Positions 8,101 through 26,353 of a DNA stretch of 34,630 bases are shown here, piece after piece. The notes beneath the pieces were generated by a model, which searched no databases, was not told where the DNA came from, and was given only the letters and a program-made list of their open reading frames with translations. Origin of the DNA: a virus. Within the stretch, counting starts at the first letter, position 1. Every line of letters begins with the position of its first letter. Made by a program: the position numbers and the translations under genes. The stretch covers positions 1 through 34,630 of the IMG/VR virus record IMGVR_UViG_3300044701_003689; one strand, given 5' to 3'.

Positions 8101-11100
8101 ATTCCAGTAGACTATGATAAAAATGACCAAACAAAATTAGAAATTATAGTTGATTCTGAAAATATTGTAGATAACAATAAGTTAGTAGTAACTGATAGTG
8201 TTTATAGTGGAGACCATTTGGTATCTGGCATAACAACCAATACTTTTACATATAACGTAGTAAAAAAACCAGAAAGATCTTCTTATATTTCTTCTGAGGC
8301 ATCTCTATCTTATGTAACAAATTCTTTAACTTCTTTTGGTGAAATTGCTGATATTAATGTTATTTTTGGAGGAAGATCATATAAAACTCTTCCCCAAATT
8401 ATTGGAGTAAATTCTTATCTAGGATATGGTGCAGTTTTAGAAGTATCAAGTTCCAATATTGGAAATATTTTTTCTACAGAGATTAAAGACATTGGATTTG
8501 AGTATTCTTCGGACAATACTTTAAGGCCTACTGCACAGATTCCACAAATATTAGAGTTAACATCTCTTTCTTCATTCGAAAGAATAGGAATTTCTTCTAT
8601 TGGAAAAAATTATACTATTGCTCCAGATTTAGTTGTTATTGATAGTATTACTAATAAGGTAATAAATGATGTTAATTTGACATATGATCTAGAAGACAAT
8701 AAAGTTACTATTTTAAAAAATACAAATGGAATTAATAATGCAATACCAACTATCATTCCAATAAACAATTCAAATGGAATTGGTATTAATTCTATAGCAT
8801 TTAATACCAACACTAAAGAAGTTACCGTTGGATTAGCAGTTAGTTATAGTTCCATTTTAGACTATCCATTTGCTGTTGGAGATAAAGTGCTTGTTGAAAA
8901 CACAAGCGTTGGGGTAACAACTACTTTAAGAGGATATAATTCATCTTCTTATGAATATGCATTGTTTACATTGACATCAGTAGACCCAAATATTGGGGGG
9001 GCAAATGGAACTGTAACTTACACTCTTGAAAATTATTTACAATCAGGGGAAAATCCAGGTACATTTAATCCAACATATTCTTCTGGAAAAATAACACCAC
9101 AAAAATTCTTTCCAATTTTTGATATTACTTTGAAAAAAAATCAATTTTTAATTGATGAGGTGATATCTACTTCAAATTCTAGTGGAATTGTAGAATCATA
9201 TGATTCTCTGAACGATAGGTTAATAGTATCATCTGCAGATACTTTTAAGGACAACGATTTAATCCTTGGTTCTTCTTCCAATTCGTATGCAATAATTAAC
9301 TCTATTCTAAGTTATAATGCATCTTATAATGTCTCTTCCTCATCAATCGTCAAAAAGGGGTGGAAAGTAGAATCTGGATTTTTAAATAATAACTTCCAAA
9401 GGCTTCATGATAGTGATTATTATCAATATTTTTCATACTCTTTAAAATCAAAAATAGAATATGAAGATTGGAAAGACGCTGTAAGTAGTATGAATCATAC
9501 TGCTGGATTTAAAAAGTTTTCTGATTTAATCGTCGAATCAAGTGAATTGCAATTTTCTGGAATATCCACAGAACAAAATTCTGGAGATTTTACAGGTAAC
9601 GTTGATCTAATTTCAGTAATTAAATTAAATTGTATAAATGATTTTGACCTAGCTACAGAAAAAACTTTAGGTATTGATTCGAATATTATTTCAGATAAGA
9701 TAATATTTAAGTCAGCCACAATACAAGATTACTTCGAATCTATTGGAAACCGCGTATTAAGTATTGATAATATTAGTAATCAGTTTAATAGTAACCCAAG
9801 ATCTTCACAATATAGTTCTGTTGATCTATTTGATCTAACTTCAGCAAGATCTAAAAAATATATAACATATGTTGCAGATAAAAGATTTACATCAGAAAGA
9901 CAAATTCTTCTTGTAACTTTATTGCATAATGATCTTTACGGATTCTTAAATCAATATGGTAGAGTCGAAACACAAAATGATCTCGGATCTTTTGACTTCA
10001 ATATTTCTGGTTCTGAGGGACAACTTCTGTTCTATCCAACAAAATATGAATTTAATGATTATGATGTAAACTTATTTTCATATGATATAAGAGATACAAT
10101 TTCGGGAATTGGAACCTTAGATTTAGGTGATTCTGTAAAAATTTCTAGTGCTACTAAGACCATCCCTGTAGGATTTAGTACTACAACAACTTTAGTTGGG
10201 ATTGCATCAACGTATAGAACATCTAAACTTTTAGTTCAGTATGTTGCTGCAGATAACTCTTATTATGAATATGACGAATTAACCGTTATTCACGATGGTT
10301 CTAACGTTGATCTTTTAGAATATGGTCAAATATCAACCGACGTATTGGTATCACTAGGTTCACCTGGAATAGGAACTTATAATGCTTACTTATCCGGTTC
10401 AAATATAAACATTGATTTTACACCTAATGTTGGTTTAGGAGTTACTTATTATACAAATATACTTCAAGTTTCTATAGCAAATACTTCTTCTAGTGGAGTA
10501 TCTACATCAAATTTGAATACGGGAAGTGTAGAATCTAGAATTACGTCAATTGGATCTAGTACTTCTCCAATAGCAAATGTTATATCAGAGTATTCCAATT
10601 TAGTGTATTCGTGTGCTTATTATATTGTAAGTTTAGAAGATACTACAAATAATCAATATCAAGTATCGGAAATTGTTGTTGTAGATGATGGCAGTACAGC
10701 ATCTTTAACTGAATTTGGAATTGTTCAAACTAAGTCTAATATTGGTAATTTTGATGTCACAATATCTGGAGGAAAAACTCAACTTACATTCACACCAATA
10801 TCAAATGCTAATGTTCAAATAAGAGTTTTCCAAAATGCACTAAGGATCATTGATACAGAAAATCCAACCACCTCAATAGATCTAACAAATGCAGCAATTA
10901 AATCTGGTTATGGGACTTATAGAGGCACATTTTTTGACGTAAAGAGATCTTTTGATTTAAATCACAAACAACTTCCAATTTTCCAAAGATATTTTGTTGG
11001 AAGTGCTTCTAGTGTAGTCAACACAACAAATAATTTGATAAAAATTCCAAATCACTTCTTTGTTACCGGAGAAGAATTGGTTTATAGTTATGATGGAGTA

Positions 11101-14100
11101 GATACAACCCAAGCTATTGGAATTGCAACAACATCTATTGTTGGTGTTGGAACAACAAACAAACTCCCAACAAATGTTTATGCTATTAAAATTGACGAAT
11201 CTAATATTCAACTTGCATCTTCTGCAGAAAATGCACTCAAAACAGTGCCGATACCTATTACCATCTCTTCAGTTGGAATAGGAACACGACACTCATTTAC
11301 ATCGAAAAAGCAAAATTCCAGAGTTTTAATTAGTATAGACAATGTAATACAGTCTCCAATTGTATCCACTTCAGTTACAACAACTCTTTCTAATCAAATT
11401 TCAATAGTTGACAATACAATTACAGTTTCTGGAATAACTTCATTTTTTGGCGGAGATTTAATAAAAATTAATAATGAAATAATGAAGATTGAGGTAGTTG
11501 GATTTGGAAGTACAAACATCTTCTTTGTAAAGAGACCTTGGATGGGTACTGGAATTTCTTCACACTCTAATGGATCTTTAGTTACAAAAATAACTGGAGA
11601 TTATAATATTGTCGATAATACATTAAATTTCATAACCGCACCTTATGGACCAGTTCCTATTGGAACAACTTCGGGAAGTCCAGATAATGTAGATTACATT
11701 GGAATCAGCACTTTTTCTACTTTTAGTGGAAGATCATTTATTAGATCTGGCGTTCCAAATACAAATGAAGATCCTTATACTAAAAATTATGTCTTTGATG
11801 ATATTTCATCAAACTTTACTGGATATTCCACTTCCTTTACTTTAAAATCAAATGGGGTAAATGTCACTGGAATTTCAACTGATAATTCTATAGTCATAAT
11901 CAATCAAATATTCCAAGGTCCACAAAGAATAAGTGGGCCAGTAAATATTTTAGGTGATTATACTCTTAGAGAAAACTCTGGAATCACTAGTATTCAATTT
12001 ACTGGATCAATTTCATCAACTTCATATGATGTAAATACCTCCAATGTTCCTCTTGGTGGAATGATTGTTTCTGTTGCCTCAACTGCAGGTCTTGGATATC
12101 AACCATTGGTTGCTGCTGGTGGAACTGCGATTATTTCTGGATTTGGTACAGTATCTGCAATTAGTATTGGTAATAGTGGATCAGGATATCGTTCAGGACT
12201 TCAGACTGTTAGAGTTGGAGTTCAGACTGAAGATCTTAATGACACCAATATTACATATATTGGTATTGCCTCAATTAGTGATGGGCGTATTGTAAGCATT
12301 GCCATTACAAACCCAGGAATTGGTTATACTTCCACCAATCCCCCACTTGTTATATTTGATTCTCCTCTAAGTTATTCTAATATTCCATTAGTTTATAGTT
12401 CATCTTCAGTTGCAGGATTTGGAAGTGGTGCAAAAATTAATATTGTTGTTGGGCAAGGTTCTAGTGTAATTGATTTTGAAATAACCAACATCGGATATGG
12501 ATATGGTCAAGGAGAAATACTAACAGTTGGTCTTGGTGGGACTGTTGGAATTCCAACTGATTCAACAATTCAATATAAAGAGTTTCAAATTACTGTTGAT
12601 AGAACATATTCAGATAGTTTTTGTGGATGGTCACTTGGAAATCTTTTGATTTTGGATCCAATTGATTCATTATTCGATGGTGTCACACTATCTTTTCCAA
12701 TTTCTGTAGATGGTCAACAAAAATCAATTAGATCTAGATCTGGATCCAATATTGACGTGCAAGAGACCTTATTGGTCTTTATAAATGATATTTTACAAGT
12801 TCCTGGGGAGGGATATGTATTTGATGGTGGAAGTTATATTAATTTTACAGAACCACCGAAGGAAGGAGATACCTCAAAAATTATTTTTTATCAAGGAACT
12901 TCTTCTGTTGATGTTCTTGATGTTGATATTTTAGAAACAATCAAAGTTGGAGATAAAATTAGATTAAATGATGATAATATCAGTTATAAGGAAAATGAAA
13001 GAATCGTTAACACTATTAATTCTATTGATAGTGTTAATACAAATCCATATGCAGGTCCTGGAATAACTGCGAATGAAACTTATGTTAGACCAGTAATTTG
13101 GTGCAAACAAACTGAGGATTTATTCATTAATGGAAAAGAAATAACTAAGGATAGAATTTGGCACGAACCATTAATTTATCCAAATACAAGAATAATACAA
13201 TCTGTAGGTGTTGCGTCAACGGTCATTTTTGTTGAAAGTGTAAAAACTTTCTTTGATAATGCTAAAGAAAATTTTACAAAACAGAATAAGATTAGAATAG
13301 TATCTCAAAAAAATGTTGTTGGAGCTTCTGCTAGTGCTGTTGTTTCTATTGCAGGAACAATTTCATCAGTATCTATTGTAAATGGTGGTATCGGATATAC
13401 CTTTGCACCGTCAATTGTTTTTGCAAATCCAGTTGGTCTTGGAATAACCCAAAGAGCGTCTGCAATTTCATCAATTACATCTGGAATTGTCACCTCAATT
13501 ACTGTAACCTCTCCAGGAACTGCATATACATCAACTAATCCTCCAGTCGTACTTATTGAAAATCCAAAAGTTTCTAATTATATTGAAGATATTTCATCTG
13601 TTACTTATGAGGGTGATTTTGGAATTATTTCTGGAATTTCAACGACATCAGTTGGAGTTGCGTCAACTGGAATTGTGTTTGATCTAGTAATTCCAAGCAA
13701 TTCCTTCTTAAGAGATTCTTCAATAGTAGGTACTGCAATAACTGTAAGTGGAATTAAGACCGATTATTATTTTGTAGTGTATAATTCTAATATTGGAAAT
13801 GGTGTTATTTCATTAAGACAAGATGGTTCGGTTGTTGGTATTGGATCTACTTTCTTAGATAACGTTTATTCAGTATCTGCAGTTTCAATTGCACAAACAA
13901 GTGTGGTTGGATTTGGAATTACTTATGTTGCAAAAGTAACAGTTAGTGTTGCAAATTATAATAATTTAATTGGAATTGGATATAGTAATTTCTTTGGTGA
14001 ATATAGTTGGGGTAAAATTTCTATTCCAATTAGAGATAATGCAAAAGATTTTGAATTCTATAATAATGGTTTAATTGGTGTTTCAACATCTCCAATTGTT

Positions 14101-14139
14101 GAGAGATATAATCCTCTCAAATATTTAAATTATACTTGA
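2134..14139 (+). CDS. gp7: Giant gp7-like baseplate wedge protein with YHYH domain and beta-repeat modules
   Basis: 4001 residues without interruption, about four times T4 gp7 (about 1030). It lies between gp6 and gp8, as gene 7 does in T4. Residues 190-218 contain FYSTKG (194-199) and ALYGEDVEV (210-218), which resemble the T4 gp7 wedge-core segment around FYSTKGIEASYKFLFKVLYN. The first ~235 residues therefore look like the wedge-binding core, here at the N-terminus. The rest is a chain of beta-rich modules: EIITYTS-type modules near residues 72-125 and 320-370, a YHYH-type domain (residues ~1196-1350, with GWAYDGNPIYGPYG at 1241-1254 and HNGR at 1304-1307), GxGY repeats, a tandem triplicate at 2570-2908 and an INDILQVPGEGY module at ~3510-3594. 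No signal peptide or membrane segment. The long arm probably extends from the baseplate periphery. The wedge assignment is strong; the role of the extension is inferred. Confidence 0.85.
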   Translation: MADTRVKISSVVENQLPIFVKEEFPLVSEFLSEYYNSLENPGGILDILQNIDQYLKLEQLTNLVDSTVTTSNVTFSDDTINVSSTLGFPESYGLLMIGSEIITYTSKTNTTFDGCVRGFSGVTSYQDPSKTDHLVFSSSNVEEHLNGSLVSNLSITFLKEFFRKVKNQFAPGFGERELYSNINQNLFIKQSKDFYSTKGTDQSFEILFRALYGEDVEVIKPRDYLFIPSNAQYRVSRDLVVDALEGNPLELNNRTLYQDQDSNFSKAYGSINNVEKIIRDNKEYYVISLDYDYNKDIIVDGSIFGSFSIHPQTKLITTAEIGSTVIDVDSTVGFPKSGSLIADLDNGTSTTITYTSKSYTQFYGCSGIDQNLISGQNLRINSYAYGYSGIGTENVVKVRITGVLSDLEIPPDTKYYTDGNKIQLKTLGKDIEDVRANNWIFNIATTYYIDTLTIVDSSNFSYRITTFDNHNLFVGDIIKLFFTDSIEVNSSVSEILNEKSFIITGQGQLNVSRKDKFQKLIKKSNFLNFPSSSIYSTDVQNTYQDQNGSFYVTSSSLPSYLNESLTVKNKSVTFSGTFIGTDLIVGNHGFYTGDAISYIPVSSTNTLGIQDGIYFVKRVNSTTIKLARSRSNLYNGNYISFNSTVTNNQITLSEFADQSLDNQKLIRNISQPQSIENPENTSSGPIGILVNGVEILNYKSKDKIFYGPLEEINVLSPGSNYDVINPPILSISDPVGTGAIAYCEVEGQFDEIQVVDGGFDYISEPTITITGGNGSGAKAKAQLFEFEHSVIFNAIQSAGQVNLVDNIIGFSSHHKFRDGEKVVYKPDGQQAVGGLTTDSVYYASVQDAFNVKLHKTYSDAIAGIGTLDLSSYGVGSQRILSFNLKKKISSITLYDNGSGYKNRKISVSSTAVDNISDVITAKNHRYSTGDIIQYSTTGTEIGGLSSGQLYYVTSLDDNSFKLSNVGSSTTIGIGSAIVGISTVSDFYFKTNQYVDIISSGSGQHIFNYPPINVTIEGVIGVSTKTDQNFNAILQPIVRGEIKSVFVESGGSDYGSEEIINYNRQPTFLSQSGEGAEVIPIISDGKIVEVLVTNPGSGYNSPPSFVISGAGIGAKLTPIISNGTLSKVNVVYGGQNYESKKTTITVVSSGSGAEFQSIALPWTINLVERNIQSNQITDDDGIIDSGINSNYGLQYTHLYAPRKLRQTVLSKKIVNGQNVYSPDLKFINNREVTSDSHSPIIGWAYDGNPIYGPYGYETIRGGNIKALESGFSISSKENRPSTSVYPLGFFIEDYSYQGTGDLDEHNGRFCITPEFPNGVYAYFSTINGFSIESSGIFKNYRKPTFPYFIGNTFKSKLNEYNISTKSNQDDVDLNTTSFFRNIKPYNLLNSNSEYNFLIEPNKIRKQSSLITNTKSGNVDFIGIKTGGFDYQVKDRVIFDNSNSNGQGVSAEVGAVKGKNVNQISVNTITIDGVEFVPSPSQNNFIAFANSPHNLLNLDTISITGINTISSNLEGSYSIGVRSDAFSVLTGIGTTGVTGIVTYFNVAGKLTYPTIRENDILQIHSEEVKVLNIDTKSSRIRVLREQNGSVGSSHTASTILYERPRKFYFTSNSNSAVFPSNFNRELYFNPIESIGIGTSYGVGIGVTLVFSNPGAGSSSIFIPTRSIYLPNHNLNTGDQLIYSSNGGTAVSVSTDGLSNFQLTNNQIVYTAKIDDNLIGISTYKVGLGSTGSFVGINSSISTNILYFTNIGVGEIHSFTTNYGNTINGQVNKNLVTVSTASTHGLNVGDKVSVDCLSGISTTYTIKYDDYNRRLIVNPKTFMSGDVDTSNDTIQINSHGYFTGQKVIYTSSTPMVGLENEGIYYIIKISNDKFKLAKTYYDSTSNNPKNIDITSTSNGTLSPVNPQIVATKNQEVIFDLSDSSLSYVKNFNSYSAFKFNLYVDSLFDTEFESQIDTNVFYVTRNGRIGIDTNATVTLRLSTDIPENLYYKLIPVDYDKNDQTKLEIIVDSENIVDNNKLVVTDSVYSGDHLVSGITTNTFTYNVVKKPERSSYISSEASLSYVTNSLTSFGEIADINVIFGGRSYKTLPQIIGVNSYLGYGAVLEVSSSNIGNIFSTEIKDIGFEYSSDNTLRPTAQIPQILELTSLSSFERIGISSIGKNYTIAPDLVVIDSITNKVINDVNLTYDLEDNKVTILKNTNGINNAIPTIIPINNSNGIGINSIAFNTNTKEVTVGLAVSYSSILDYPFAVGDKVLVENTSVGVTTTLRGYNSSSYEYALFTLTSVDPNIGGANGTVTYTLENYLQSGENPGTFNPTYSSGKITPQKFFPIFDITLKKNQFLIDEVISTSNSSGIVESYDSLNDRLIVSSADTFKDNDLILGSSSNSYAIINSILSYNASYNVSSSSIVKKGWKVESGFLNNNFQRLHDSDYYQYFSYSLKSKIEYEDWKDAVSSMNHTAGFKKFSDLIVESSELQFSGISTEQNSGDFTGNVDLISVIKLNCINDFDLATEKTLGIDSNIISDKIIFKSATIQDYFESIGNRVLSIDNISNQFNSNPRSSQYSSVDLFDLTSARSKKYITYVADKRFTSERQILLVTLLHNDLYGFLNQYGRVETQNDLGSFDFNISGSEGQLLFYPTKYEFNDYDVNLFSYDIRDTISGIGTLDLGDSVKISSATKTIPVGFSTTTTLVGIASTYRTSKLLVQYVAADNSYYEYDELTVIHDGSNVDLLEYGQISTDVLVSLGSPGIGTYNAYLSGSNINIDFTPNVGLGVTYYTNILQVSIANTSSSGVSTSNLNTGSVESRITSIGSSTSPIANVISEYSNLVYSCAYYIVSLEDTTNNQYQVSEIVVVDDGSTASLTEFGIVQTKSNIGNFDVTISGGKTQLTFTPISNANVQIRVFQNALRIIDTENPTTSIDLTNAAIKSGYGTYRGTFFDVKRSFDLNHKQLPIFQRYFVGSASSVVNTTNNLIKIPNHFFVTGEELVYSYDGVDTTQAIGIATTSIVGVGTTNKLPTNVYAIKIDESNIQLASSAENALKTVPIPITISSVGIGTRHSFTSKKQNSRVLISIDNVIQSPIVSTSVTTTLSNQISIVDNTITVSGITSFFGGDLIKINNEIMKIEVVGFGSTNIFFVKRPWMGTGISSHSNGSLVTKITGDYNIVDNTLNFITAPYGPVPIGTTSGSPDNVDYIGISTFSTFSGRSFIRSGVPNTNEDPYTKNYVFDDISSNFTGYSTSFTLKSNGVNVTGISTDNSIVIINQIFQGPQRISGPVNILGDYTLRENSGITSIQFTGSISSTSYDVNTSNVPLGGMIVSVASTAGLGYQPLVAAGGTAIISGFGTVSAISIGNSGSGYRSGLQTVRVGVQTEDLNDTNITYIGIASISDGRIVSIAITNPGIGYTSTNPPLVIFDSPLSYSNIPLVYSSSSVAGFGSGAKINIVVGQGSSVIDFEITNIGYGYGQGEILTVGLGGTVGIPTDSTIQYKEFQITVDRTYSDSFCGWSLGNLLILDPIDSLFDGVTLSFPISVDGQQKSIRSRSGSNIDVQETLLVFINDILQVPGEGYVFDGGSYINFTEPPKEGDTSKIIFYQGTSSVDVLDVDILETIKVGDKIRLNDDNISYKENERIVNTINSIDSVNTNPYAGPGITANETYVRPVIWCKQTEDLFINGKEITKDRIWHEPLIYPNTRIIQSVGVASTVIFVESVKTFFDNAKENFTKQNKIRIVSQKNVVGASASAVVSIAGTISSVSIVNGGIGYTFAPSIVFANPVGLGITQRASAISSITSGIVTSITVTSPGTAYTSTNPPVVLIENPKVSNYIEDISSVTYEGDFGIISGISTTSVGVASTGIVFDLVIPSNSFLRDSSIVGTAITVSGIKTDYYFVVYNSNIGNGVISLRQDGSVVGIGSTFLDNVYSVSAVSIAQTSVVGFGITYVAKVTVSVANYNNLIGIGYSNFFGEYSWGKISIPIRDNAKDFEFYNNGLIGVSTSPIVERYNPLKYLNYT
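2347..2502 (+). repeat. EIITYTS-type beta module, copy 1 in gp7-like protein
   Basis: Encodes the pattern INVSSTLGFP...G-LMIGSEIITYTSK...FDGCVRGFSG, just before the wedge-core segment. A second copy lies at about 3090-3240 (VIDVDSTVGFPKSG...ITYTSKS...FYGCSGI) and a third, more divergent, at about 11395-11590 (ISIVDNTITV...GGDLIKINNEIMKIE...VKRPWMGTGISSHSNGSLV). Related copies occur in gp15 and in the 823-residue protein. These are protein-level repeats; the DNA copies have diverged. Confidence 0.6.
5701..6180 (+). other. YHYH-type domain within the gp7-like protein
   Basis: This segment encodes residues ~1190-1349. The family hallmarks are an early histidine strand (YTHLYAPR), SPIIGWAYDGNPIYGPYGY, then LDEHNGRFCITPEFPNGVYAYFST and a final PTFPYFIGNTF. 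The established YHYH family (named for its motif) typically shows a G-x-x-x-D-G-x-P-I-Y-G-P core followed by L-D-x-x-N-G-R, and both are present. YHYH domains are found in secreted or surface bacterial proteins and in large structural proteins of marine T4-like phages; their biochemical role is not established. Domain identity is fairly sure, function unknown. Confidence 0.8.
9841..10857 (+). repeat. Three tandem protein repeats (~125-residue period) in gp7-like protein
   Basis: Three diverged copies start near residues 2570, 2694 and 2820. Each follows the order: an S-K/Y-tyrosine strand (SKKYITYV, SKLLVQYV, SCAYYIVS), a Y/Q-rich turn into a strand (ILLVTLLHNDL, ELTVIHDGSNV, EIVVVDDGSTA), then L-x-x-Y/F-G (FLNQYGRVET, LLEYGQISTD, LTEFGIVQTK), LG/IG-x-F/Y strand, ISG or LSG, and a closing F-T/Y-P (LLFYPT, IDFTPN, LTFTPI). 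Spacing is 124 and 126 residues. The internal linkers are GIST/GIGT-rich. It looks like a triplicated beta-sandwich unit in the extended arm. Confidence 0.7.
12145..13570 (+). repeat. GxGY-P beta repeats near the C-terminus of gp7-like protein
   Basis: Repeated units of the form I-x-I-x-N-x-G-x-G-Y-x-x-x-x-P-x-V/I-x-I occur here: SIGNSGSGYRSG, AITNPGIGYTSTNPPLVIFD, FEITNIGYGYGQGE, SIVNGGIGYTFAPSIVFAN and TVTSPGTAYTSTNPPVVLIE. They are grouped at about 12145-12540 and 13330-13570, on either side of the INDILQVPG module. Further copies in the same protein lie at about 4270-4485 and 5251-5605. The same unit appears in gp8, gp14 and the 823-residue protein. Confidence 0.65.
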
Positions 14140-15721: not shown

Positions 15722-18700
15722 ATGCCACAAGAAACTAATCTCAATGTCTCTCCTTATTTTGATGACTTTGATCTAGAAAAAGACTACTATAAAGTTCTTT
15801 TTAAACCGGGATATCCAGTTCAGGCAAGAGAATTGACTACTATTCAGTCAATTTTGCAAAATCAAATAGAACAGTTTGGAAGTCATACTTTTAAAGAAGG
15901 GTCTGTTGTTATTCCCGGCAATGTAATTTATAGAAATGATTTAAATGTTGTAGTCATAGAAGATTCTTATCAAGGAATACCTGCAGATTACTATTTAAAT
16001 AGTTTGGTTGGTATAAGGATAAGAGGACAAAGAAGTGGAGTTACTGCGGTAATTAATGATTATTTGAAAATTGGGGAAGGTGTAAGTAAGATTACATTAA
16101 TTATTAGATACTTAGCATCTAATTCCGAAAATAACTTAGAGTCAAAATTTTTAGATGGAGAAAATCTGCTAGTCGATCAAGACGTACTGGCAATTGATGA
16201 AAATACTTTAGATCAAAATGATTCGGAATTTATTCAAATACAATCTGGCGAAGGATTTGCAACTACAGTATCAGAAGCAAGCACTGCTATAGGATCTGCA
16301 GTTTATTTGGAAGAAGGAATATATTTTATTAGAGGATATTTTGTTAAAGTTCCAACAAGTGTTTTATATTTAGATCCATTTTCAAATACTCCGAGTTGTA
16401 AAGTTGGACTTAGAATATTTGAAGATATTGTCAATTCTTTTGATGATGATAGTTTGAATGATAATTCCCAAGGATTCTCTAACTACGCTGCTCCTGGAGC
16501 AGATAGATTTTCTATTTTTACAAAATTAGAAAAAATATCATTAGATTCTACAGATGTAGATAATTTTATAGGATTGTTAGAAATTTCTAACGGAAAACTT
16601 AACAATATTACAGTTAAACCAGAATACAATATTCTTGCTCAAGAATTTGCAAGAAGAACTTATGACGAATCTGGCGATTACCATATAAATCAACCAATAA
16701 TTGAAATTCAAGAAACTTTAAATAATCTTAAAGGAAATGATGGTATATTTACAGAAGATCAATTAACATATAACGGAAATGTTCCTAATGAAAATTTGGG
16801 AACTTACATTATTTCTCCACTCAAATCTTATGTTAGGGGATTTGAAATTGAAACTATAAATTCAACATTTTTGGATTTTCCCAAACCTAGAGATACAAAA
16901 ACATTAGAAAATCAAAGTATAAATTATTTTACAGGACCATCTCTTTCTCTCAACAGAGTTTATGGATCTCCGTTAGTTAGTATTGCAACAACTTATTCTG
17001 TAAGTCTTAGAGATTCTAGAGTTGGAGTCTCGCAAACCACAGCACCTGGAAGTGAAATTGGATTAGCTAGAGTTTATGATTTTGCTTTGGAGTCTGGATC
17101 TTATTTTACATCCAATCCAAATGAAAATCAATGGGATATTTCTTTATATGATATTCAAACATACACAACTATTGTGTTAAATGAACCGATAACACTATCC
17201 ACTCCAACTCATATTAAAGGTAAAGAAAGTGGAGCTTTTGGATATCTTAGGTATGATGTAACTAATAGTAGTAATTTGACAGTTTATAATACTAAGGGAA
17301 GTTTTTCTTTGGGAGAAAAACTCATTTTTGACGGTATAGAAAACACAAGGCTAACAAAAACAGTTCGCTCATATGGAATAAATGACGTAAAATCCATTTA
17401 CGGTATAGTTGGGACTGCATACACCTTTACTGCAGATACAGTTCAATATGGATCAATAGAAATTGGAGAAGTAAATATAAGTGCCGCCTCAGGTGGAATT
17501 AGTACAGTTACCTCAACAAATACTATTTTTGCTGGTATAGCAACTGTAGGAAACTTAGTTGGTTTTTCTAATCCAGGTCTGTCAACAAATACTTACGCTA
17601 AAGTTGAATCAGTTTCTACAAATTCATTAACGATTAGTGGAATAACGACTGTAACTGGAATTTGTGATGGTGGTCTTCCTGTTTCAACAATAAATCCATC
17701 CAATTTTACAATTTTATCTACAAATTTTCAGCAATCTTCTGACAATACTTTATATACAACTCTTCCTAAAGTAAATATATCAAATGTAGATTTGACACAA
17801 TCAAATTTATCTATAAGGAAGCAATTTGATGTTACTATAACTTCAAACTCAACCGGAGCAATAACTGCCGGATCGAATGAAACTTTCTTACCATTTGACG
17901 AAGAAAGATATGTCTTGATAAGAGAAGATGGGACAACTGAAGCGTTGAGTTCTGATAAATTTGCATTTACAAATGGATCTCAAACTTTGACCATTAGTGG
18001 ACTTTCTGGCAATGGTAATGGCAAATTGATTGCAACTCTTAGAAAAATAAATATAAAATCAAAAATTAAAAACAAAAATAGAATAAAAACAATTTTGATT
18101 GACAAATCAAAATACTCAGCATCTGGAATTGGTGCAACATCTTTAAATGACGGACTTACATATGGAAATTATCCATATGGTACTAGAGTTCAAGATGAAG
18201 ATATTTGTTTACTTGAACCGGAAGTTACTGAAGTATATGGAATTTTTGAGTCAAATGATACTAACAACCCAGATCTTCCATCCATAGTCTTTAATTCTTT
18301 AGACGGTCAAACAAATAAAACTGGAGACCTTCTTATTGGAGAAGAATTTGTCGGTCAAAGTAGTAAAGCAATTGGAATTTATGCAGAAAAAATTAATGAT
18401 TTAAAAATAGGATTTACTTACTTAAATTCAAATAATTTTATTGAAGGTGAAAAAATAACATTTAAAGAATCTGGAATTAGTGGATTTGTTTCTTTGATAG
18501 ATATTGGCGATAAAAATATTTCATCTTCTTTCACTTTAGATATAAATCAAAGCGAAACAATTTATGATTATTCTAAACTTATTAGAAATAAAACTTCAAA
18601 AGAACCAACTAAAAAATTAAAAATTGTTTTTGAATCCGCAAGTTTTTCTTCATCAGATACTGGAGATTTAACTACAGTAAACTCATATCAACAATTTGAT

Positions 18701-19927
18701 TATTGTAATATTGATAGTGTAAATGGTATATCAAAAAATTCCGATATACTTGACATTAGGCCTAGAGTTTCTCCAATTAATCCAACAGAAAATTCAAGAT
18801 CACCATTTGAATTTTTGTCAAGAAATTTTACTGCACTGGGAAATTCAGCATCAAATATTTTGGCATCCGATGAATCAATTCTTTTATCGTATTCCTTTTA
18901 TCTTCCCAGAATTGATACTATAATTTTAAACAAAAATGGAAATCTTGAATTAAGATTGGGAGTTTCTGCAGAAGATCCACAAATTCCAATCTCAAATGAA
19001 GATGGATTACAAATAGCTACTGCGTATTTACCACCATATCTTTGTAATATTACTGATGTAAATATCGACTTAAAAGAATATAAAAGATATCGTATGTCTG
19101 ATATCAGCAGACTTGAGGATAGAATAGAAAACTTAGAATATTATACTTCCCTCTCTTTACTTGAAGTTGATGCATCAAATCAAGCAGTTATCGATGAAAA
19201 TGGACTTAATAGATTTAAATCTGGAATTTTTGTTGATAATTTTTCATCAAATATCTCTCAACGAAAAACAACAATTGTTAAAAATAGTATAGATATTCAG
19301 AATTTAGAATTAAGACCTACTCATTATACTACAGAAATAGATTTATTATTAGCAACATCATCAAACTCTTCAATAGATTCTAGAACAGATGAAAATTTAA
19401 TTGGTAATGGCGTAAAAAGAACTGGGCAACTTATAACTTTAGACTATGAAGAAGTTGCTGTTATAAATCAACCATATTCCACAAGATCAGTAAACGTTAA
19501 TCCATATTCTCAAGAGTTTTTTGGTGGATCAATTACACTATTTCCCTCCTCAGATGTTTGGGTTGATCAAGTCAGACTGTCTACGAAGAGTGTTGAAATT
19601 GAGCAACTTTATTTTGAGTCTGTAGAACAAAAAGATGTGGGAAGATCAGATCCACAAAAAGGATATAATCCACCTACCTGGAATGCTCCTAGTTCACCTT
19701 CAAAATCAAAACCTAAATCAATTTCATCTATCCCATCTAAATCATCATCTCCGCGCAAATCAGCGCCGGCACCAAAACCTGCCCCCAAACCAACTCCAGT
19801 TGTACCAAAGGCCGCACCTCCGAAGCAGGTAAGTTATCCCGTTTTTGGAAAACCAGGATCAAATATGACGACGATCACTCAAGGAGGAGCATTTTCTTCT
19901 AAAATCAACTGGAACAATGTTAAATGA
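15722..19927 (+). CDS. DUF4815-type virion structural protein (baseplate/fibre), N-terminal part of a split protein
   Basis: 1401 residues. The first ~65 residues (NVSPYFDDFD, YKVLFKPGYPVQARELTTIQSI, FGSHTFKEGSVV-PG) are the hallmark of DUF4815 proteins of large tailed phages. The central part has G-E-x-hydrophobic modules (SLGEKLIFDG, IGEEFVGQSSKAIG). Near residues 1150-1310 come SDISRLEDRIENLEYYTSLSLLE, a helix conserved in this family, and GSITLFPSSDVWVDQVRL. In the homologues I recall, the chain then continues into an IPYMRSR-type domain; here it ends after a P/K/S/A-rich linker (about residues 1313-1370) and a short YPVFGKPGSNMTTITQGG tail, and that next domain is encoded by the following gene. 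It takes the place of T4 gp9-gp12. A baseplate-peripheral or fibre role is inferred. Confidence 0.8.
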   Translation: MPQETNLNVSPYFDDFDLEKDYYKVLFKPGYPVQARELTTIQSILQNQIEQFGSHTFKEGSVVIPGNVIYRNDLNVVVIEDSYQGIPADYYLNSLVGIRIRGQRSGVTAVINDYLKIGEGVSKITLIIRYLASNSENNLESKFLDGENLLVDQDVLAIDENTLDQNDSEFIQIQSGEGFATTVSEASTAIGSAVYLEEGIYFIRGYFVKVPTSVLYLDPFSNTPSCKVGLRIFEDIVNSFDDDSLNDNSQGFSNYAAPGADRFSIFTKLEKISLDSTDVDNFIGLLEISNGKLNNITVKPEYNILAQEFARRTYDESGDYHINQPIIEIQETLNNLKGNDGIFTEDQLTYNGNVPNENLGTYIISPLKSYVRGFEIETINSTFLDFPKPRDTKTLENQSINYFTGPSLSLNRVYGSPLVSIATTYSVSLRDSRVGVSQTTAPGSEIGLARVYDFALESGSYFTSNPNENQWDISLYDIQTYTTIVLNEPITLSTPTHIKGKESGAFGYLRYDVTNSSNLTVYNTKGSFSLGEKLIFDGIENTRLTKTVRSYGINDVKSIYGIVGTAYTFTADTVQYGSIEIGEVNISAASGGISTVTSTNTIFAGIATVGNLVGFSNPGLSTNTYAKVESVSTNSLTISGITTVTGICDGGLPVSTINPSNFTILSTNFQQSSDNTLYTTLPKVNISNVDLTQSNLSIRKQFDVTITSNSTGAITAGSNETFLPFDEERYVLIREDGTTEALSSDKFAFTNGSQTLTISGLSGNGNGKLIATLRKINIKSKIKNKNRIKTILIDKSKYSASGIGATSLNDGLTYGNYPYGTRVQDEDICLLEPEVTEVYGIFESNDTNNPDLPSIVFNSLDGQTNKTGDLLIGEEFVGQSSKAIGIYAEKINDLKIGFTYLNSNNFIEGEKITFKESGISGFVSLIDIGDKNISSSFTLDINQSETIYDYSKLIRNKTSKEPTKKLKIVFESASFSSSDTGDLTTVNSYQQFDYCNIDSVNGISKNSDILDIRPRVSPINPTENSRSPFEFLSRNFTALGNSASNILASDESILLSYSFYLPRIDTIILNKNGNLELRLGVSAEDPQIPISNEDGLQIATAYLPPYLCNITDVNIDLKEYKRYRMSDISRLEDRIENLEYYTSLSLLEVDASNQAVIDENGLNRFKSGIFVDNFSSNISQRKTTIVKNSIDIQNLELRPTHYTTEIDLLLATSSNSSIDSRTDENLIGNGVKRTGQLITLDYEEVAVINQPYSTRSVNVNPYSQEFFGGSITLFPSSDVWVDQVRLSTKSVEIEQLYFESVEQKDVGRSDPQKGYNPPTWNAPSSPSKSKPKSISSIPSKSSSPRKSAPAPKPAPKPTPVVPKAAPPKQVSYPVFGKPGSNMTTITQGGAFSSKINWNNVK

Positions 19928-20000
19928 TTTAAATTAATTGATATTTTACTAAAAATATATAAATACATATAACCAGTTAATATCATAAATTCAATATCAA
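19928..20000 (+). promoter_or_regulatory. Intergenic leader with perfect late promoter TATAAATA (19958-19965)
   Basis: This 73-nt AT-rich gap has the exact T4 late consensus TATAAATA at 19958-19965, 35 nt before the next ATG. No Shine-Dalgarno is seen; the start context is ATCAAATGA, shared with the next downstream gene at 21227. It is the best-matching promoter in the window. Confidence 0.65.
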
Positions 20001-21158
20001 ATGACATCACTATTACCAAGCACTACAGGCGCTCCAGCAGCCACAAGAACTTCTTTTGGTGATCAGGTATTGAATTCACAGTCAATACCTTATATGAGGT
20101 CTAGAAATATTGAATTTACTTGCAAAAGATTAAAACCATTTACTAGAGTATATTCCTTTTTTAGTGGAATTGATGTCAATTCATATATTATACCAAAATT
20201 ACTTGATATTACTATGACTAGTGGAGTCTTTGAGGTTGGAGAAACCGTGATAGGATCTTTTGATACTCCAAATATACTTTCACCAACAATTAAATTTAGA
20301 GTTGCTCAACAAAATCACAAATATGGTGCATATAATTCCCCATCAGATGTTTATACGACAAATCCATATAATTCTGCTACAACTATTCCCGAATTATATT
20401 CATCAACATCAACAATACTTAATGTAGATACTTATAGTTTATCAAATCAACCTCAAGGGCAATTCAATGGTTATGTTGCAGTTGGAATGAAGTTACGTGG
20501 ACAAACAAGTCAGGCTGAAGCCACTATTAGTAGTATAAGATTAGTGACAGATCAAATTGGTGTTGTTATTGGATCATTTTTTATTCCAAATGGAAACATA
20601 GATGTTAATCCAAAATTTGAATGTGGCACCAAATCCTTTAGAGTTACAAGTAGTAATACAAATTCACAAATATTTGGGACATATTCCACAAGTGCCGAAG
20701 AGAGGTATTTTTCTGAAGGTAAACTTAATACTGTTCAAGAAAATGTAATTGTCACTAGGCCATTAAAAATTGATAGTAATAATGGTGATATATCAGGTCC
20801 AGGAACTCCAAATAATGATGTTCCATCTAGCAATGATGGAGGTAGTGGTAGTGGAAGAAGTTATAGTTCCGGATCTAGTTCTAGAACTAATGTATACTAT
20901 AATTATGGATCATCTCCACTTGGTCAAGGAGCAGTTAGGGACTTGACTGCACTTGCAAGCAAAGCAGGGGTTCCGACAAAAAATATTAGCACTACTATGA
21001 CAGCTCAACAACAAGCAAATATAGTTGCAAAAATTAATAGTAGTAGTTGGGCATCTAATAGTGGCGTTAAAGTTTCTACGAGTACTTCGGGAACTTATAG
21101 GTCTGCGGCGCCAGCTGGAAGAACAGTTGGTGGCGTAACAACGGGTGCTAGAAGGTAA
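20001..21158 (+). CDS. Virion structural protein, middle part of the split DUF4815-type protein
   Basis: 385 residues. Residues ~28-68 (SIPYMRSRNIEF, RLKPFTRVYSFFSGIDVNSYIIPKL) form a widely conserved block that, in other large phages, follows the DUF4815 region within one polypeptide. Next come FEVGETVIGS and GMKLRGQTSQAEATIS modules and FECGTKSFRVTSS...EERYFSEGKLNTVQENVIVTR, again in the order of the fused homologues. From about residue 270 the protein departs from that pattern: a Gly/Ser-rich linker (SGSGRSYSSGSSSR), then a small, probably helical segment (GAVRDLTALASKAGVPTKN, MTAQQQANIVAKI) and a Ser/Thr/Gly-rich tail. I do not recognise this C-terminal module. It probably assembles with its two neighbours into one baseplate or fibre component. 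Confidence 0.75.
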   Translation: MTSLLPSTTGAPAATRTSFGDQVLNSQSIPYMRSRNIEFTCKRLKPFTRVYSFFSGIDVNSYIIPKLLDITMTSGVFEVGETVIGSFDTPNILSPTIKFRVAQQNHKYGAYNSPSDVYTTNPYNSATTIPELYSSTSTILNVDTYSLSNQPQGQFNGYVAVGMKLRGQTSQAEATISSIRLVTDQIGVVIGSFFIPNGNIDVNPKFECGTKSFRVTSSNTNSQIFGTYSTSAEERYFSEGKLNTVQENVIVTRPLKIDSNNGDISGPGTPNNDVPSSNDGGSGSGRSYSSGSSSRTNVYYNYGSSPLGQGAVRDLTALASKAGVPTKNISTTMTAQQQANIVAKINSSSWASNSGVKVSTSTSGTYRSAAPAGRTVGGVTTGARR

Positions 21159-21226
21159 TCCTATAAACAATAAATTTTTAAAAGAAAATAAACAAAATAA
21201 ATAAAACAATAGTAGTAAATTATCAA
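21159..21226 (+). promoter_or_regulatory. Intergenic leader with putative late promoter AATAAATA (21196-21203)
   Basis: A 68-nt, nearly all-A/T gap. AATAAATA at 21196-21203 lies 23 nt before the next ATG, and a weaker TATAAACA lies at 21162-21169. No Shine-Dalgarno; the start context ATCAAATGA is the same as for the gene at 20001. Confidence 0.45.
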
Positions 21227-23698
21227 ATGAAAGTCATAGATCCATTAGCACAGTCATTTTATATAGAAAACGAGGATGGTGCTTTTATAACATCAATAGA
21301 TTTATATTTTTCTACTAAAGATGATAACTTACCAGTAACTATTCAACTTAGACCAATGGAACTTGGTCTACCATCACCTAAAATATATCCATTTAGTGAA
21401 ATTGTAATAGATCCAAAAGATATTCAAGTTTCTGAAGATGCAACAATACCAACTAATATAAAATTTGAGTCTCCTGTATATTTGTTGGGTGAAAGATTTC
21501 ATTCAATTGTTATTTTATCAAATTCAGAAAACTATAATGTATGGGTTTCTAGATTGGGAGAAGTTGATGTTACCACAAGTTCTGGTCCAGAATCAAAGCA
21601 AGTTTTAGTAACAAAACAACCACTATCTGGAGGTTTATTTAAATCACAAAATGCTGCTACTTGGAATGAAAGCCCATATGAAGATTTAAAATTTACTTTA
21701 TATCGCGCAAACTTTATAGAATCTCAAGGTAATTTTAATTTTTACAATCCAGAATTAAATCTAGGAAATAATCAGATTGCTACATTAGTTCCAAATTCAC
21801 TCGAATTTACATCAAAAAAAATTAGAGTCGGTTTAGGAAGTACTGTACAAGATGCTAATCTCCAATTTGGAAACACAATTATACAACAGGGAAGTAATGC
21901 AAGTGGAAATTATATAGATTCTGCTGGAATTGCAACTGGAAATTTAACCGTACTAAATGCTGGTATTGGATATACACCATCAACGGGAAGTTTAACATTT
22001 AATGGCGTATCTGTCACAAATCTCACTGGAAATGGAAGAAATGCAACAGCAAATATTACCATTTCGAACGGAGTTGCAATAGCAGCAACAATATCTAATG
22101 GTGGAACTGGTTATGTTGTAGGAGATGTAATTTCACCATCACAAGTAGGTTCACAGTCTCTCGGCCAAGATTTAATACTTTCAATTTCTCAAATAGGTGG
22201 AATAAATGAACTAATCTTAGATAATGTTCAAGGAGATTTTGTAATTGGTGCAGGAAAAACAATTCAATATATTAACAGTCTTGGAATAACTACAAATTTA
22301 AATGCATCATCTGGTGGTGGAGTTTTAATTTCAGTTGATGGAATTCAGACAGAAACTGATGGTTTACATATTAAAGTAAATCATAAAAACCACGGAATGC
22401 ACGCAGAAGAAAATTCCGTAATAATATCAAATGTTTTTACCGATACAAAACCAATTAAATTAACTGCAAATTATGAAAAAAATTCCAGTGATAATCTTTT
22501 AGTTGACAGTACATTAAATTTTTCAACGTTTGAAAATGTTGGTATTAGCAGCACAAATCCAGGATACGTATTAATTGGCAATGAGATTATTTCTTATGAA
22601 GGTGTTACTTCTAATTCATTAACCGGCATAACTAGACAAATAGATCAAACACTGGCATTTACATATTCTCAAGGAACTCCTGTTTACAAATATGAGTTGA
22701 ATGGAATTTCATTGAGAAGAATTAATAAAACGCACACTTTACAAGATGCCACTGTTTCAGATCCTATTGATTTTGACTTTTATACTTTAAAGGTAGATAC
22801 CTCTCAGTCAGGAAAAACAGATCCTCTTCCATACGGTCAAGTTGATAGAAGTATTGGAACAAACTTTCCAAAACTTTATGTGAATGAAACTAAATCTACA
22901 GGTGGAAATTTTGTTAATGCAACTCAAAATATTCAATACGAAATTGCAAATCCAAATATTCAAACTTTGTCTTTTAATGGAACAAATATTACAACACAAA
23001 TGAGAAGCGTTAGTGGAACTAGTGTTGATGGACAAGAAATTTCATTTGAAGATCGTGGATTTGATCTTGTGGAATTAGATTCATATAATTACTTCGATTC
23101 TCCAAGATTAATTTGTTCCAAAATAAACGAACAGGAAAGATTGGGAAATCTTCCAGATAATAAGTCTTTAACTGTCAATATGTCATTAGAAACAACAAAT
23201 TCATATTTATCACCTGTTGTTGATTTAGACAGAACTTCTATGATTTTCATAAGCAATAGAATCAATAGTCCTGTTGAGAATTATGTTACAGATAACAGAG
23301 TCAATACTTTATCTGACGATCCATCATCTTTTGTTTATGCTACAAATGATATTCAATTAGAAATTCCTGCAACATCATTGAAGGTTATTGTTTCTGCATA
23401 TGTAAACATTTTTAGTGATTTGAGAGCTTTGTATTCTATAAAAGATGGTATTGAGAATGAATCAGTATACTCATTATTCCCAGGAAATAGTTTAAGTTTT
23501 GATGGCACTTCGGATAAAAAAATTATCAAATCCGATGCTCTTTCTTTTAGTAGTGAAGAATTAGAATTCAAAGATTATGAATTTACAATTTCAAATCTCC
23601 CAGCATTTAAATATTTTAGTATTAAATTAATTGGTTCTGGGACTAATCAAGCGTTCCCACCAAGATTAAAAGATCTTCGAGTAATTGCTCTTGCATAA
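21227..23698 (+). CDS. Virion structural protein, C-terminal part of the split DUF4815-type protein
   Basis: 823 residues. It begins exactly at a conserved domain boundary: KVIDPLAQSFYIENEDGAFITSIDLYFSTKDDNLPV, then SEDATIPTNIKFESPVYLLGE, YNVWVSRLGE and GGLFKSQNAATWNESPYEDLKFTLYRA. In homologues this block is internal to the DUF4815 chain. Residues ~235-325 hold two GxGY repeats (LNAGIGYTPSTGSLTFNG, ISNGGTGYVVGDVISPSQVG), and residues ~417-493 hold an EIITY-type module (GYVLIGNEIISYEGVTSNSL). The C-terminus is conserved: SPVVDLDRTSMIFISNRIN, a Y-x-F-T-I-x-N-L-P-A-F-x-x-F-x-I-K strand and the ending TNQAFPPRLKDLRVIALA. A distal baseplate or fibre-anchoring role is inferred. The next gene starts 1 nt after its stop. 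Confidence 0.78.
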   Translation: MKVIDPLAQSFYIENEDGAFITSIDLYFSTKDDNLPVTIQLRPMELGLPSPKIYPFSEIVIDPKDIQVSEDATIPTNIKFESPVYLLGERFHSIVILSNSENYNVWVSRLGEVDVTTSSGPESKQVLVTKQPLSGGLFKSQNAATWNESPYEDLKFTLYRANFIESQGNFNFYNPELNLGNNQIATLVPNSLEFTSKKIRVGLGSTVQDANLQFGNTIIQQGSNASGNYIDSAGIATGNLTVLNAGIGYTPSTGSLTFNGVSVTNLTGNGRNATANITISNGVAIAATISNGGTGYVVGDVISPSQVGSQSLGQDLILSISQIGGINELILDNVQGDFVIGAGKTIQYINSLGITTNLNASSGGGVLISVDGIQTETDGLHIKVNHKNHGMHAEENSVIISNVFTDTKPIKLTANYEKNSSDNLLVDSTLNFSTFENVGISSTNPGYVLIGNEIISYEGVTSNSLTGITRQIDQTLAFTYSQGTPVYKYELNGISLRRINKTHTLQDATVSDPIDFDFYTLKVDTSQSGKTDPLPYGQVDRSIGTNFPKLYVNETKSTGGNFVNATQNIQYEIANPNIQTLSFNGTNITTQMRSVSGTSVDGQEISFEDRGFDLVELDSYNYFDSPRLICSKINEQERLGNLPDNKSLTVNMSLETTNSYLSPVVDLDRTSMIFISNRINSPVENYVTDNRVNTLSDDPSSFVYATNDIQLEIPATSLKVIVSAYVNIFSDLRALYSIKDGIENESVYSLFPGNSLSFDGTSDKKIIKSDALSFSSEELEFKDYEFTISNLPAFKYFSIKLIGSGTNQAFPPRLKDLRVIALA

Positions 23699-23699
23699 T

Positions 23700-23927
23700 A
23701 TGAAATACTCTAAAGTTGAAGGACATTTAAATCTAGTAAGAGATGAACAAACTAAAGCAATTTTAAATATTAATAATACTGAATATGAAAATTATATTAA
23801 ATTAAAAAAAATAAAAGAAGATGATAATAATAGAATAAAAAATTTAGAATCTGATGTGAATGATATGAAAAGTGATTTAAATGAAATTAAAAATTTGTTG
23901 AGGAATTTAATCAATGAACCCAGATGA
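23700..23927 (+). CDS. Small coiled-coil protein upstream of the neck genes
   Basis: 75 residues from the ATG at 23700, one nt after the preceding stop. An in-frame ATG at 23685 lies inside the upstream gene and is less likely. It opens with MKYSKVEGHLNLVRDEQTKAI; the G-x-x-N-L-V-R-D start is a pattern I recall from small proteins of T4-like marine phages. The second half (from about residue 40) is a strongly charged heptad-like helix (IKNLESDVNDMKSDLNEIKNLLRNLI), predicted coiled coil. Function unknown. Its position just upstream of gp13, where T4 carries the coiled-coil fibritin gene wac, is suggestive but there is no sequence similarity to claim. Confidence 0.7.
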   Translation: MKYSKVEGHLNLVRDEQTKAILNINNTEYENYIKLKKIKEDDNNRIKNLESDVNDMKSDLNEIKNLLRNLINEPR

Positions 23928-24078
23928 AATTAACTTAGAAAATATTAACAAAATGTTTGAATATGAAAAACTTGCTAGAGATATAGATAGTATAGATGAT
24001 TTTGATATCTTGAGAAATTATGCAAAATCTTACATAAAACTTTACTTTAAACAACAAGAAGTTATATCTAAATTCTAA
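23914..24078 (+). CDS. 54-residue acidic helical protein overlapping gp13 start
   Basis: ATG at 23914, overlapping the previous gene by 14 nt in another frame, with TAA at 24076-24078 sharing one base with the gp13 ATG (TAATG). The product reads MNPDEINLENINKMFEYEKL, continues ARDIDSIDDFDILRNYAKSY and ends IKLYFKQQEVISKF. The F-E-Y-E-K, R-x-I-D and A-K-x-Y-x-K-L-Y-x-K-Q-Q-E-V pattern resembles small proteins I recall beside gp13 in marine T4-like phages. It is predicted all-helical. The stop-start overlaps on both sides indicate translational coupling and argue that it is real. Function unknown. Confidence 0.75.
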   Translation: MNPDEINLENINKMFEYEKLARDIDSIDDFDILRNYAKSYIKLYFKQQEVISKF

Positions 24079-24931: not shown

Positions 24932-26353
24932 ATGCTCAATCCATTCTTCTTACAGGGATCTAAAGCAGAACAAGGGTTAATTCAGGATCTTATCAACGAA
25001 CAGTTGAGGATGTATGGTGTTGAGGTTCATTATCTTCCTAGACAGTATATAACAGAAAAAACAGTTATAAGAGAAGTTATTGAATCTGAATTTAATAACG
25101 CATATCCTATTGAGGCATATGTTGATAATTTTGATGGATATGGCGACAATCCAACAATTTTATCAAAGTTTGGTATTCAAGCACTTAATGAAATTACATT
25201 AATTATTTCAAGAGAAAGATTTAAAAACTATATCTCACCTTTAATTGAAAATCAATCGAATGTTAAATTATCATCAAGACCAAAGGAAGGAGATCTAATT
25301 TATTTTCCTTTAGGTAAGCGTTTATTCGAAATTAAATATGTAGAGCACGAAAAACCATTCTATCAACTTCAAGGAAGTTACACATATCAGTTAAGATGCG
25401 AACTCTTTAGATATGAAGATGAACTTATTGATACAAGTATTAATGAGATTGATGAATTAATATCTGGTGATAACTCAACTGATCCAGAAAAAAATCCTAT
25501 TGGAAATCTTGTCAATCTTACAATGGCAGGAGTTGGAATTACTGCAACAGCAACCGCTTCAATTGTAAATGGTGGTATAAGATTCATCACAATTACAAAT
25601 CGCGGTGGAGGTTATACTAGTACCCCTACTGTTGGCATTTCTTCTGCTCCAGCTCCTACAGGTAGAACAGCAACTGCAATTGCTGAAATGATTGGTGGGG
25701 TTGTTGTATGTAATGATAATATAAATCCACAGGCAAAATCAGTTCAGAGAGTTTTACTCACTAACGCTGGATATGGATATACTACAACTCCAGGAGTAAG
25801 ATTTATTGGGGGTGGTGGCAGTGGTGCAGCTGCAACTGCTACTCTTGGAGATGGAATTGTAGGCATAATTACCGTTACAAACTCTGGTTCTGGATATATA
25901 AATCCACCAAGTATTACCTTTACTGGAGTATCAACAATATCTGCCGCAGCAACAGCAGTTGTATCTGCTGCAGGATCAATTACTGCAATTTATATTACAA
26001 ATGCTGGTCTTGGATATACTGCAAATCCAATACTTACAATTGGAAATCCACTCTTAACTTCTATTGGAAACTTTATTTTTAATGAATTGGTGACTGGATC
26101 ACAAAGTGGTGTAACTGCAAGAGTTAAATCTTGGAACTCTACTACAAAAGTTCTTCAAGTCTCTCAATTGACTGGTAATTTTATTTCTGGAGAGAATATT
26201 GTTGGTTCTGCATCAAGTGCTTCCCATTATTTACGTTCAGTTAATGTTGTCCCTTCTCTTAACAGAGATGGATATGCAACAAATGATGAAATTGAAGAAG
26301 AAGCAGATGATATTATTGATTTTGACGAGACAAATCCATTCGGAATGCCATAA
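24932..26353 (+). CDS. gp14: Neck protein gp14 with inserted GxGY beta repeats
   Basis: 473 residues against 256 in T4. The N-terminal ~185 residues (MLNPFFLQGSKAEQGLIQDLINEQLRMYGVEVHYLPR, AYVDNFDGYGDNPTILSKFGI, GDLIYFPLGKRLFEIKYVEHEKPFYQLQG) are typical gp14. The C-terminal DIIDFDETNPFGMP is also family-like. Between them, about residues 190-435 are an insertion: four GxGY-P repeats followed by a QSGVTARVKSWNSTTKVLQVSQLTGNFISGENIVGSASSA module. gp14 lies under gp13 in the neck. The insert should decorate the neck surface, perhaps replacing a collar or whisker function. It starts 5 nt after gp13 without a clear Shine-Dalgarno. Confidence 0.92.
   Translation: MLNPFFLQGSKAEQGLIQDLINEQLRMYGVEVHYLPRQYITEKTVIREVIESEFNNAYPIEAYVDNFDGYGDNPTILSKFGIQALNEITLIISRERFKNYISPLIENQSNVKLSSRPKEGDLIYFPLGKRLFEIKYVEHEKPFYQLQGSYTYQLRCELFRYEDELIDTSINEIDELISGDNSTDPEKNPIGNLVNLTMAGVGITATATASIVNGGIRFITITNRGGGYTSTPTVGISSAPAPTGRTATAIAEMIGGVVVCNDNINPQAKSVQRVLLTNAGYGYTTTPGVRFIGGGGSGAAATATLGDGIVGIITVTNSGSGYINPPSITFTGVSTISAAATAVVSAAGSITAIYITNAGLGYTANPILTIGNPLLTSIGNFIFNELVTGSQSGVTARVKSWNSTTKVLQVSQLTGNFISGENIVGSASSASHYLRSVNVVPSLNRDGYATNDEIEEEADDIIDFDETNPFGMP
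25553..26050 (+). repeat. Four tandem GxGY-P repeats in gp14
   Basis: The units centre on ITITNRGGGYTSTPTVGISS, VLLTNAGYGYTTTPGVRFIG, ITVTNSGSGYINPPSITFTG and IYITNAGLGYTANPILTIGN. Between them are Ala/Thr-rich strands (GRTATAIAEMIGG, GAAATATLGDGIVG, ISAAATAVVSAAG). The period is about 35-55 residues. The array sits between the conserved N-terminal core and the conserved C-terminus of gp14, so it is an insertion and not a C-terminal extension. Confidence 0.8.

Follow-up and report, generated by a model that had tools for sequence, protein, structure and literature searches.

Successive gene fissions as the probable origin of a three-gene DUF4815/VrlC baseplate locus in an uncultured T4-like virus

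Pelagimyophages share the protein VrlC with the cyanomyophages to which they have been compared, and it has been described as an integral component of the baseplate (PMC7029224). In the annotated isolate cyanophages sampled here, the family is represented by one open reading frame (ORF) of about 2400-2670 amino acids (aa); these isolates are S-SM2, Bellamy, P-TIM68, B23, S-SSM7, S-SRM01, ACG-2014f, SynMITS9220M01, S-RIM2, S-CREM2, S-SCSM1, S-CAM9, DSL-LC03, Sf-FS3, S-CAM7, P-RSM6 and RN05-S. One ORF is also found, by ORF scan, in the unannotated single-cell marine virus AG-345-O18, and the more distant family members, in a Kuttervirus and in phi812, are single chains as well. The DNA analysed here, the 34,630 bases of the IMG/VR virus contig IMGVR_UViG_3300044701_003689 (hereafter the window), carries a T4-like tail module and departs from this usual one-chain state of the family. 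Within the gene order gp8 - VrlC - gp13/gp14, which is identical in isolates such as S-SM2, the place of VrlC is occupied in the window by three ORFs with intergenic DNA between them. The best explanation, to which a probability of roughly 0.88 is assigned, is that successive gene fissions divided a single ancestral DUF4815/VrlC baseplate chain into this trio.

The three genes lie on the plus strand. Gene 1 (15722..19927; product P0001, 1401 aa) corresponds to the N-terminal ~56% of the presumed ancestral chain, gene 2 (20001..21158; P0002, 385 aa) to its middle and gene 3 (21227..23698; P0003, 823 aa) to its C-terminal part. An original prediction, made from the sequence, had reported three ORFs of 1401, 385 and 823 residues at 15722-23698; the exact coordinates were recovered and the sequence blocks that it quoted are present, and its premise that these blocks form one chain in other large phages agrees with the single ORFs of the isolates sampled. 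The check that it proposed, a search of each piece against phage proteins, returned consecutive parts of the family phrog_358: P0001 matches positions 1-1156 (E-value 0), P0002 positions 1184-1402 (1e-72) and P0003 positions 1421-2055 (4e-190). These stretches do not overlap, are separated by two short gaps and together span 1-2055 of the 2056 positions of the profile, and chance as the source of such consecutive profile matches is excluded. P0001 also aligns by tblastn to single-chain cyanophage proteins. All the pieces thus align to one protein and not to unrelated ones; the designation as a DUF4815-type protein is refined in that, of the three products, P0001 alone has a Pfam DUF4815 match (4e-60).

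Between genes 1 and 2, break 1 is an intergenic stretch of 73 nucleotides (nt; 19928..20000, plus strand) with no Rfam match, and between genes 2 and 3, break 2 is one of 68 nt (21159..21226, plus strand). Both contain stops in all three frames, and adjacent genes of the trio occupy different reading frames. In unsplit relatives both break sites are linkers of variable length. The linker between the parts corresponding to genes 2 and 3 measures 28-68 aa in the isolates shown; in some of the uncultured phages with one gene it extends to about 310 aa and holds collagen-like repeats and added domains (in the one-gene loci L150 and L151, GPPGPR repeats of this kind are accompanied by an added domain, in a sequence that resembles DUF4214 by eye). 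Gene 1 of the window ends in a Pro/Ser/Lys-rich, fast-evolving C-terminal tail (residues ~1322-1401; 19685..19924, plus strand), at the position of which unsplit relatives have an internal linker. The C-terminal tail of gene 2 (20733..21155, plus strand) consists of a linker (residues 245-297), which is of low confidence in the AlphaFold2 model and probably disordered, followed by a small helical domain (residues about 298-360; 20892-21080, plus strand). This domain is common to near split relatives, in which it forms a homologous 'LNK' segment; it gave no PHROG match and a single weak Pfam match under the curated cut-off. The proposal that the upstream pieces had gained new low-complexity C-termini is refined in one respect: the tails are not entirely new material, because unsplit relatives already possess variable linkers at both sites.

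The sequence NATAAATA has been described as a late promoter of cyanomyoviruses, in S-PM2 (PMC2984593). It occurs at 10 sites on the plus strand of the window, 7 of which sit 20-43 nt upstream of gene starts, genes 2 and 3 included: TATAAATA, a T4/cyanophage-type late promoter motif (19958..19965, plus strand), lies 43 nt upstream of the gene 2 ATG, and AATAAATA, also a late promoter motif (21196..21203, plus strand), 31 nt upstream of the gene 3 ATG. Sites also precede gp8, gp15, position 27853 and the sheath gene. By their position, these motifs correspond to T4/cyanophage late promoters and are regarded as putative promoters. Upstream of gene 3, NATAAATA is present in 29 of the 38 distinct split loci, against 6.7 expected by shuffling (35/45 in a previous count with less strict selection of loci), and at the homologous place it occurs in none of the 46 unsplit loci (1.1 expected). 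Before gene 2, it is present in the window and in L003. In the sister contigs L055, L057 and L058, gene 2 lacks a separate promoter motif; it either overlaps gene 1 or comes directly after it, with a ribosome-binding site (AGGAGG or AGAGG) in front. AT-rich gaps of 75 and 81 nt precede gene 2 in L180 and L181, respectively; the L180 gap contains CATAAATA, and the L181 gap has no exact match to the late motif in the sequence printed. Each downstream piece had been predicted to carry its own start and motif, which is borne out in the window and does not extend, as regards the DNA motif, to gene 2 of L055, L057 and L058.

Uncultured contigs show three states of the locus, namely one gene, two genes (with 1 and 2 fused and 3 separate) and three genes, and in a 64-row tree these gene-number states require two changes. 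A larger tree of 110 rows places each of the 58 one-gene rows outside a single split clade (support of 98 in the Shimodaira-Hasegawa-like approximate likelihood ratio test, SH-aLRT). This clade comprises 45 rows with two genes, five with three genes and one row with the 1|2 split that is truncated before gene 3. According to this topology, the 2|3 break is the older and the 1|2 break the younger, having arisen within the split clade, because one-gene rows lie outside the clade, two-gene rows within it and three-gene rows are nested; this difference in age was missed by the original prediction. The three-gene arrangement appears neither ancestral nor universal, being restricted to a few nested rows, with the two-gene state as an intermediate. 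The position of the 2|3 break is the same in 45 tree rows; six further contigs share the 1|2 break (L003, L055, L057, L058, L180 and L181). The three-gene rows form one group with the window, L055 and L057 (plus the near-copy L058) and another with L003, L181 and L180; their union in one clade received weak support in the first trees (40 and 51/4) and was abandoned when the 110-row tree separated them.

Selection was estimated as the ratio of nonsynonymous to synonymous changes (pN/pS), computed against L058. For the whole genes of the trio it lies between 0.25 and 0.46 (0.30 in gene 1 and 0.25 in gene 3), while pN reaches 0.62 in the tail of gene 1 against 0.15 in its body, and 0.46 in the tail of gene 2 against 0.15 in its body, where pS is 0.51. 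By these estimates, all three bodies are under purifying selection and constraint is relaxed in the tails. The fast evolution of the tails would be expected of a decaying gene whose three parts are non-functional fragments, but the ratios of the whole genes and the long ORFs that have been kept make decay highly unlikely. The possibility that the trio is an intact gene interrupted by errors of sequencing or assembly draws on isolated frameshifts that do exist in this family: S-SKS1 (L169) has no annotated gene at the locus and a frameshift within the gene 1 region, a probable error in the record, and L113 and L231 carry frameshifts inside the same region that are probably sequence errors or broken copies. 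These lie within P0001 and away from the linkers, and as an account of the trio such errors are scarcely credible in view of gaps of 73 and 68 nt that are stopped in all frames, of promoter motifs, new starts and replaced tails, and of the same junctions (2|3 in 45 tree rows, 1|2 in six further contigs) in independent contigs. The contention that this is gene fission and not a frameshift error is therefore sustained by the intergenic DNA, the new starts and tails, the promoter motifs, purifying selection and an arrangement common to other contigs.

Split genes of phages are sometimes joined by a programmed frameshift, an intron or an intein, and the pieces could likewise be reunited after transcription or translation. 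No Rfam match, group I introns included, was obtained in the window or in five relatives, the gaps, at 68-73 nt, contain multiple stops and would be small for an intron of this group, and the pieces have starts and promoter motifs of their own and dissimilar tails, all of which renders rejoining very improbable. A reverse history, from three ancestral genes to a single chain by later fusion, is conceivable in principle, and for a two-gene clade of 12 rows beside the group of L003, L181 and L180, a history with re-fusion of genes 1 and 2 is one of two that are equally short; however, the rooted tree has one-gene rows around the split clade and the distant relatives are also single chains, so that an origin of the single chain by fusion is judged very unlikely.

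Several points nevertheless weigh against the fission of one baseplate chain as explained here. Every split case is an uncultured contig, and the 110-row tree was made with a fast search. In this tree the three-gene rows stand in two places; therefore, break 1 either arose twice or was reversed once by re-fusion. The 12-row clade mentioned above has a 1/2 linker of only about 13-39 aa, and in most earlier two-gene branches this linker measures 53-71 aa. The start of gene 2 (MTS...SFGDQ) is similar in L003, L055, L058 and the window and looser in L180 and L181, and the similar starts lean towards one origin of break 1. P0002 alone gave no convincing fold match in PDB; a Klebsiella phage baseplate chain was its best candidate and was rejected as too weak (Z score 5.8 over 70 residues). 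Finally, separate chains in virions and their joint assembly are predictions, as are the subunit ratios other than 1:1:1 that the original prediction envisaged, and unequal expression would not be general, because gene 2 of L055, L057 and L058 lacks a promoter motif of its own.

As comparison of the relatives shows, an ancestral gene encoding about 2400-2700 aa was cut first in the linker between the middle and C-terminal parts, and the downstream piece carries a start codon of its own (M-x-x-x-DPLAQSF) together with a late promoter motif. A second cut, inside the split clade and in the linker that joins the N-terminal part to the middle one, led to three genes. The three proteins would be produced separately late in infection and, since the bodies of the trio remain conserved, would reassemble at the baseplate position that is filled by one chain elsewhere. 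The breaks would thereby put free C-termini in place of two internal linkers that were variable beforehand, and such termini, unlike an internal linker, can bear extra, fast-changing or chaperone-linked domains.

As regards the role of the trio, P0003 matches the baseplate DUF4815 protein of phi812 (PDB 9euf) by phmmer (3e-19), and the fold of its model matches 9euf, 9eui and 9euj with Z scores of 12.5-13.2 (the next rows reach about 8) over residues ~789-1151 of the phi812 protein. P0001 matches by sequence a different part of this chain. In P0002, the beta domain (residues 28-240) was modelled by AlphaFold2 with a predicted local distance difference test (pLDDT) score mostly above 85. By analogy with the phi812 structure, the trio is predicted to lie in the virion baseplate, where three subunits most likely do jointly what one chain does in relatives. 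Searches of the collected literature retrieved nothing useful on the function of DUF4815 under that name and no paper on the phi812 baseplate structure.

In relatives of the window, the gap at break 2 holds further ORFs. In 21 of the 59 distinct split loci (L004, L005, L063, L065, L068, L073, L074, L080, L081, L085, L086, L088, L100, L181, L182, L191 and others), the C-terminus of gene 2 reads SDxxLKxNI and then NALNRL or a similar sequence, which is the N-terminal half of a Peptidase_S74 chaperone; a separate ORF of about 83-110 aa, immediately downstream of gene 2, encodes the other half. The halves co-occur in 21/21 loci, are both absent in 38/38 and are never fused; both are under purifying selection (pN/pS of 0.39 and 0.32 in 18 loci). 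Against the Pfam S74 profile, the C-terminal half scores 36.4 bits alone and 50.6 bits when joined with the N-terminal half, and the Ser-x4-Lys spacing of the split relatives is as in MyRF and endoNF (S587/K592 spacing). The two halves may work together in trans. A programmed frameshift between gene 2 and the C-terminal half was discarded, as relative frames 0, 1 and 2 all occur, with gaps of -17 to +7 nt. L003 has a second N-terminal half at the end of gene 1, without a C-terminal half of its own. The gap may contain, together with or instead of the S74 half, an ORF with a SET domain, found between genes 2 and 3 in L004, L005, L063, L065, L080 and L191 and decayed in some relatives: L002 retains only its end, and a SET-like scrap seen by eye in L006 is a possible remnant. 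Among deposited phages, its near relatives are only two records of one uncultured phage, both of 735,411 bases. In the window, the tails of genes 1 and 2 have no S74 motif, no ORF for the C-terminal half follows and there is no SET ORF; in the collected literature, no paper on a two-part S74 chaperone was found. Tentatively, and with the odds somewhat against it, the free C-terminus made by fission may have taken up a two-part chaperone, with a catalytic N-terminal half on the structural protein and a separate C-terminal half completing the domain in trans, possibly for two clients in L003; the form in the window would be a descendant or sister without the chaperone. Two candidate origins of the breaks were set aside: a homing endonuclease, as the gap ORFs found are S74 and SET and not nucleases, and a duplication of the break 2 cassette as the source of break 1, as no convincing repeat was found in the window.

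The remaining tail module of the window comprises gp6 (start 213), a gp7-like baseplate wedge protein of 4001 aa with a YHYH domain (2134-14139), gp8 (start 14162) upstream of the trio and, downstream of it, gp13 (start 24078) and gp14 (start 24932), with gp15 and gp16 next in order; the large terminase, sheath and tube genes start at 29812, 31770 and 34006, respectively. Between gene 3 and gp13 (23700-24078) there are two small ORFs of about 75 and 54 aa, the first of which looks coiled-coil-like by eye; isolates also have small genes between the gene 3 region and gp13, one of them annotated as prefoldin. The C-terminal half of the gp14-like protein (24932-26353) matches PHROGs of baseplate and virion structural proteins, some of which are also matched by the gp7-like and gp8 proteins, and this suggests a domain repeated across tail proteins.

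Large viral machines use chains that elsewhere are separate subunits, and the intermediate steps are rarely visible. In this uncultured cyanophage-like branch, one-, two- and three-gene states all survive among close relatives, and comparing them reveals directly in which order the breaks probably arose, that a promoter motif accompanies the first break and that new tails have grown. The locus is therefore a well-documented example of part of a viral machine dividing into subunits. The three states provide a natural series for asking whether the splitting of a baseplate protein alters assembly, subunit ratio or surface display, and also point to a chaperone domain encoded in two pieces.

Compared with known systems, the locus has partial counterparts. 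The T5-like phages DT57C and DT571/2 have two tail fibre genes, LtfA and LtfB, where relatives have one, and fused mutants have been observed (PMC4728585). Their C-termini carry Peptidase_S74 domains, as in the split relatives described here, but each domain is complete there; moreover, LtfB has no homology to T5 proteins and is not the remainder of T5 Ltf (PMC4728585), whereas here conserved pieces of one protein are separated. Like the split relatives, the Peptidase_S74 intramolecular chaperone of endosialidase and MyRF ICA has the Ser-x4-Lys motif together with the remainder of the domain, but those relatives encode the domain in two ORFs; the window has neither half. The phi812 DUF4815 protein (ORF65; 9euf, 9eui and 9euj), matched in sequence by P0001 and P0003, is a single, much shorter chain of 1152 aa from a Staphylococcus phage. 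A further counterpart is VrlC/DUF4815 of the T4-like cyano- and pelagimyophages, with which the trio shares the sequence family, the position between gp8 and gp13 and the conserved order of blocks, and from which it differs in that one chain of about 2400-2670 aa is replaced in the window by three proteins encoded by three genes.

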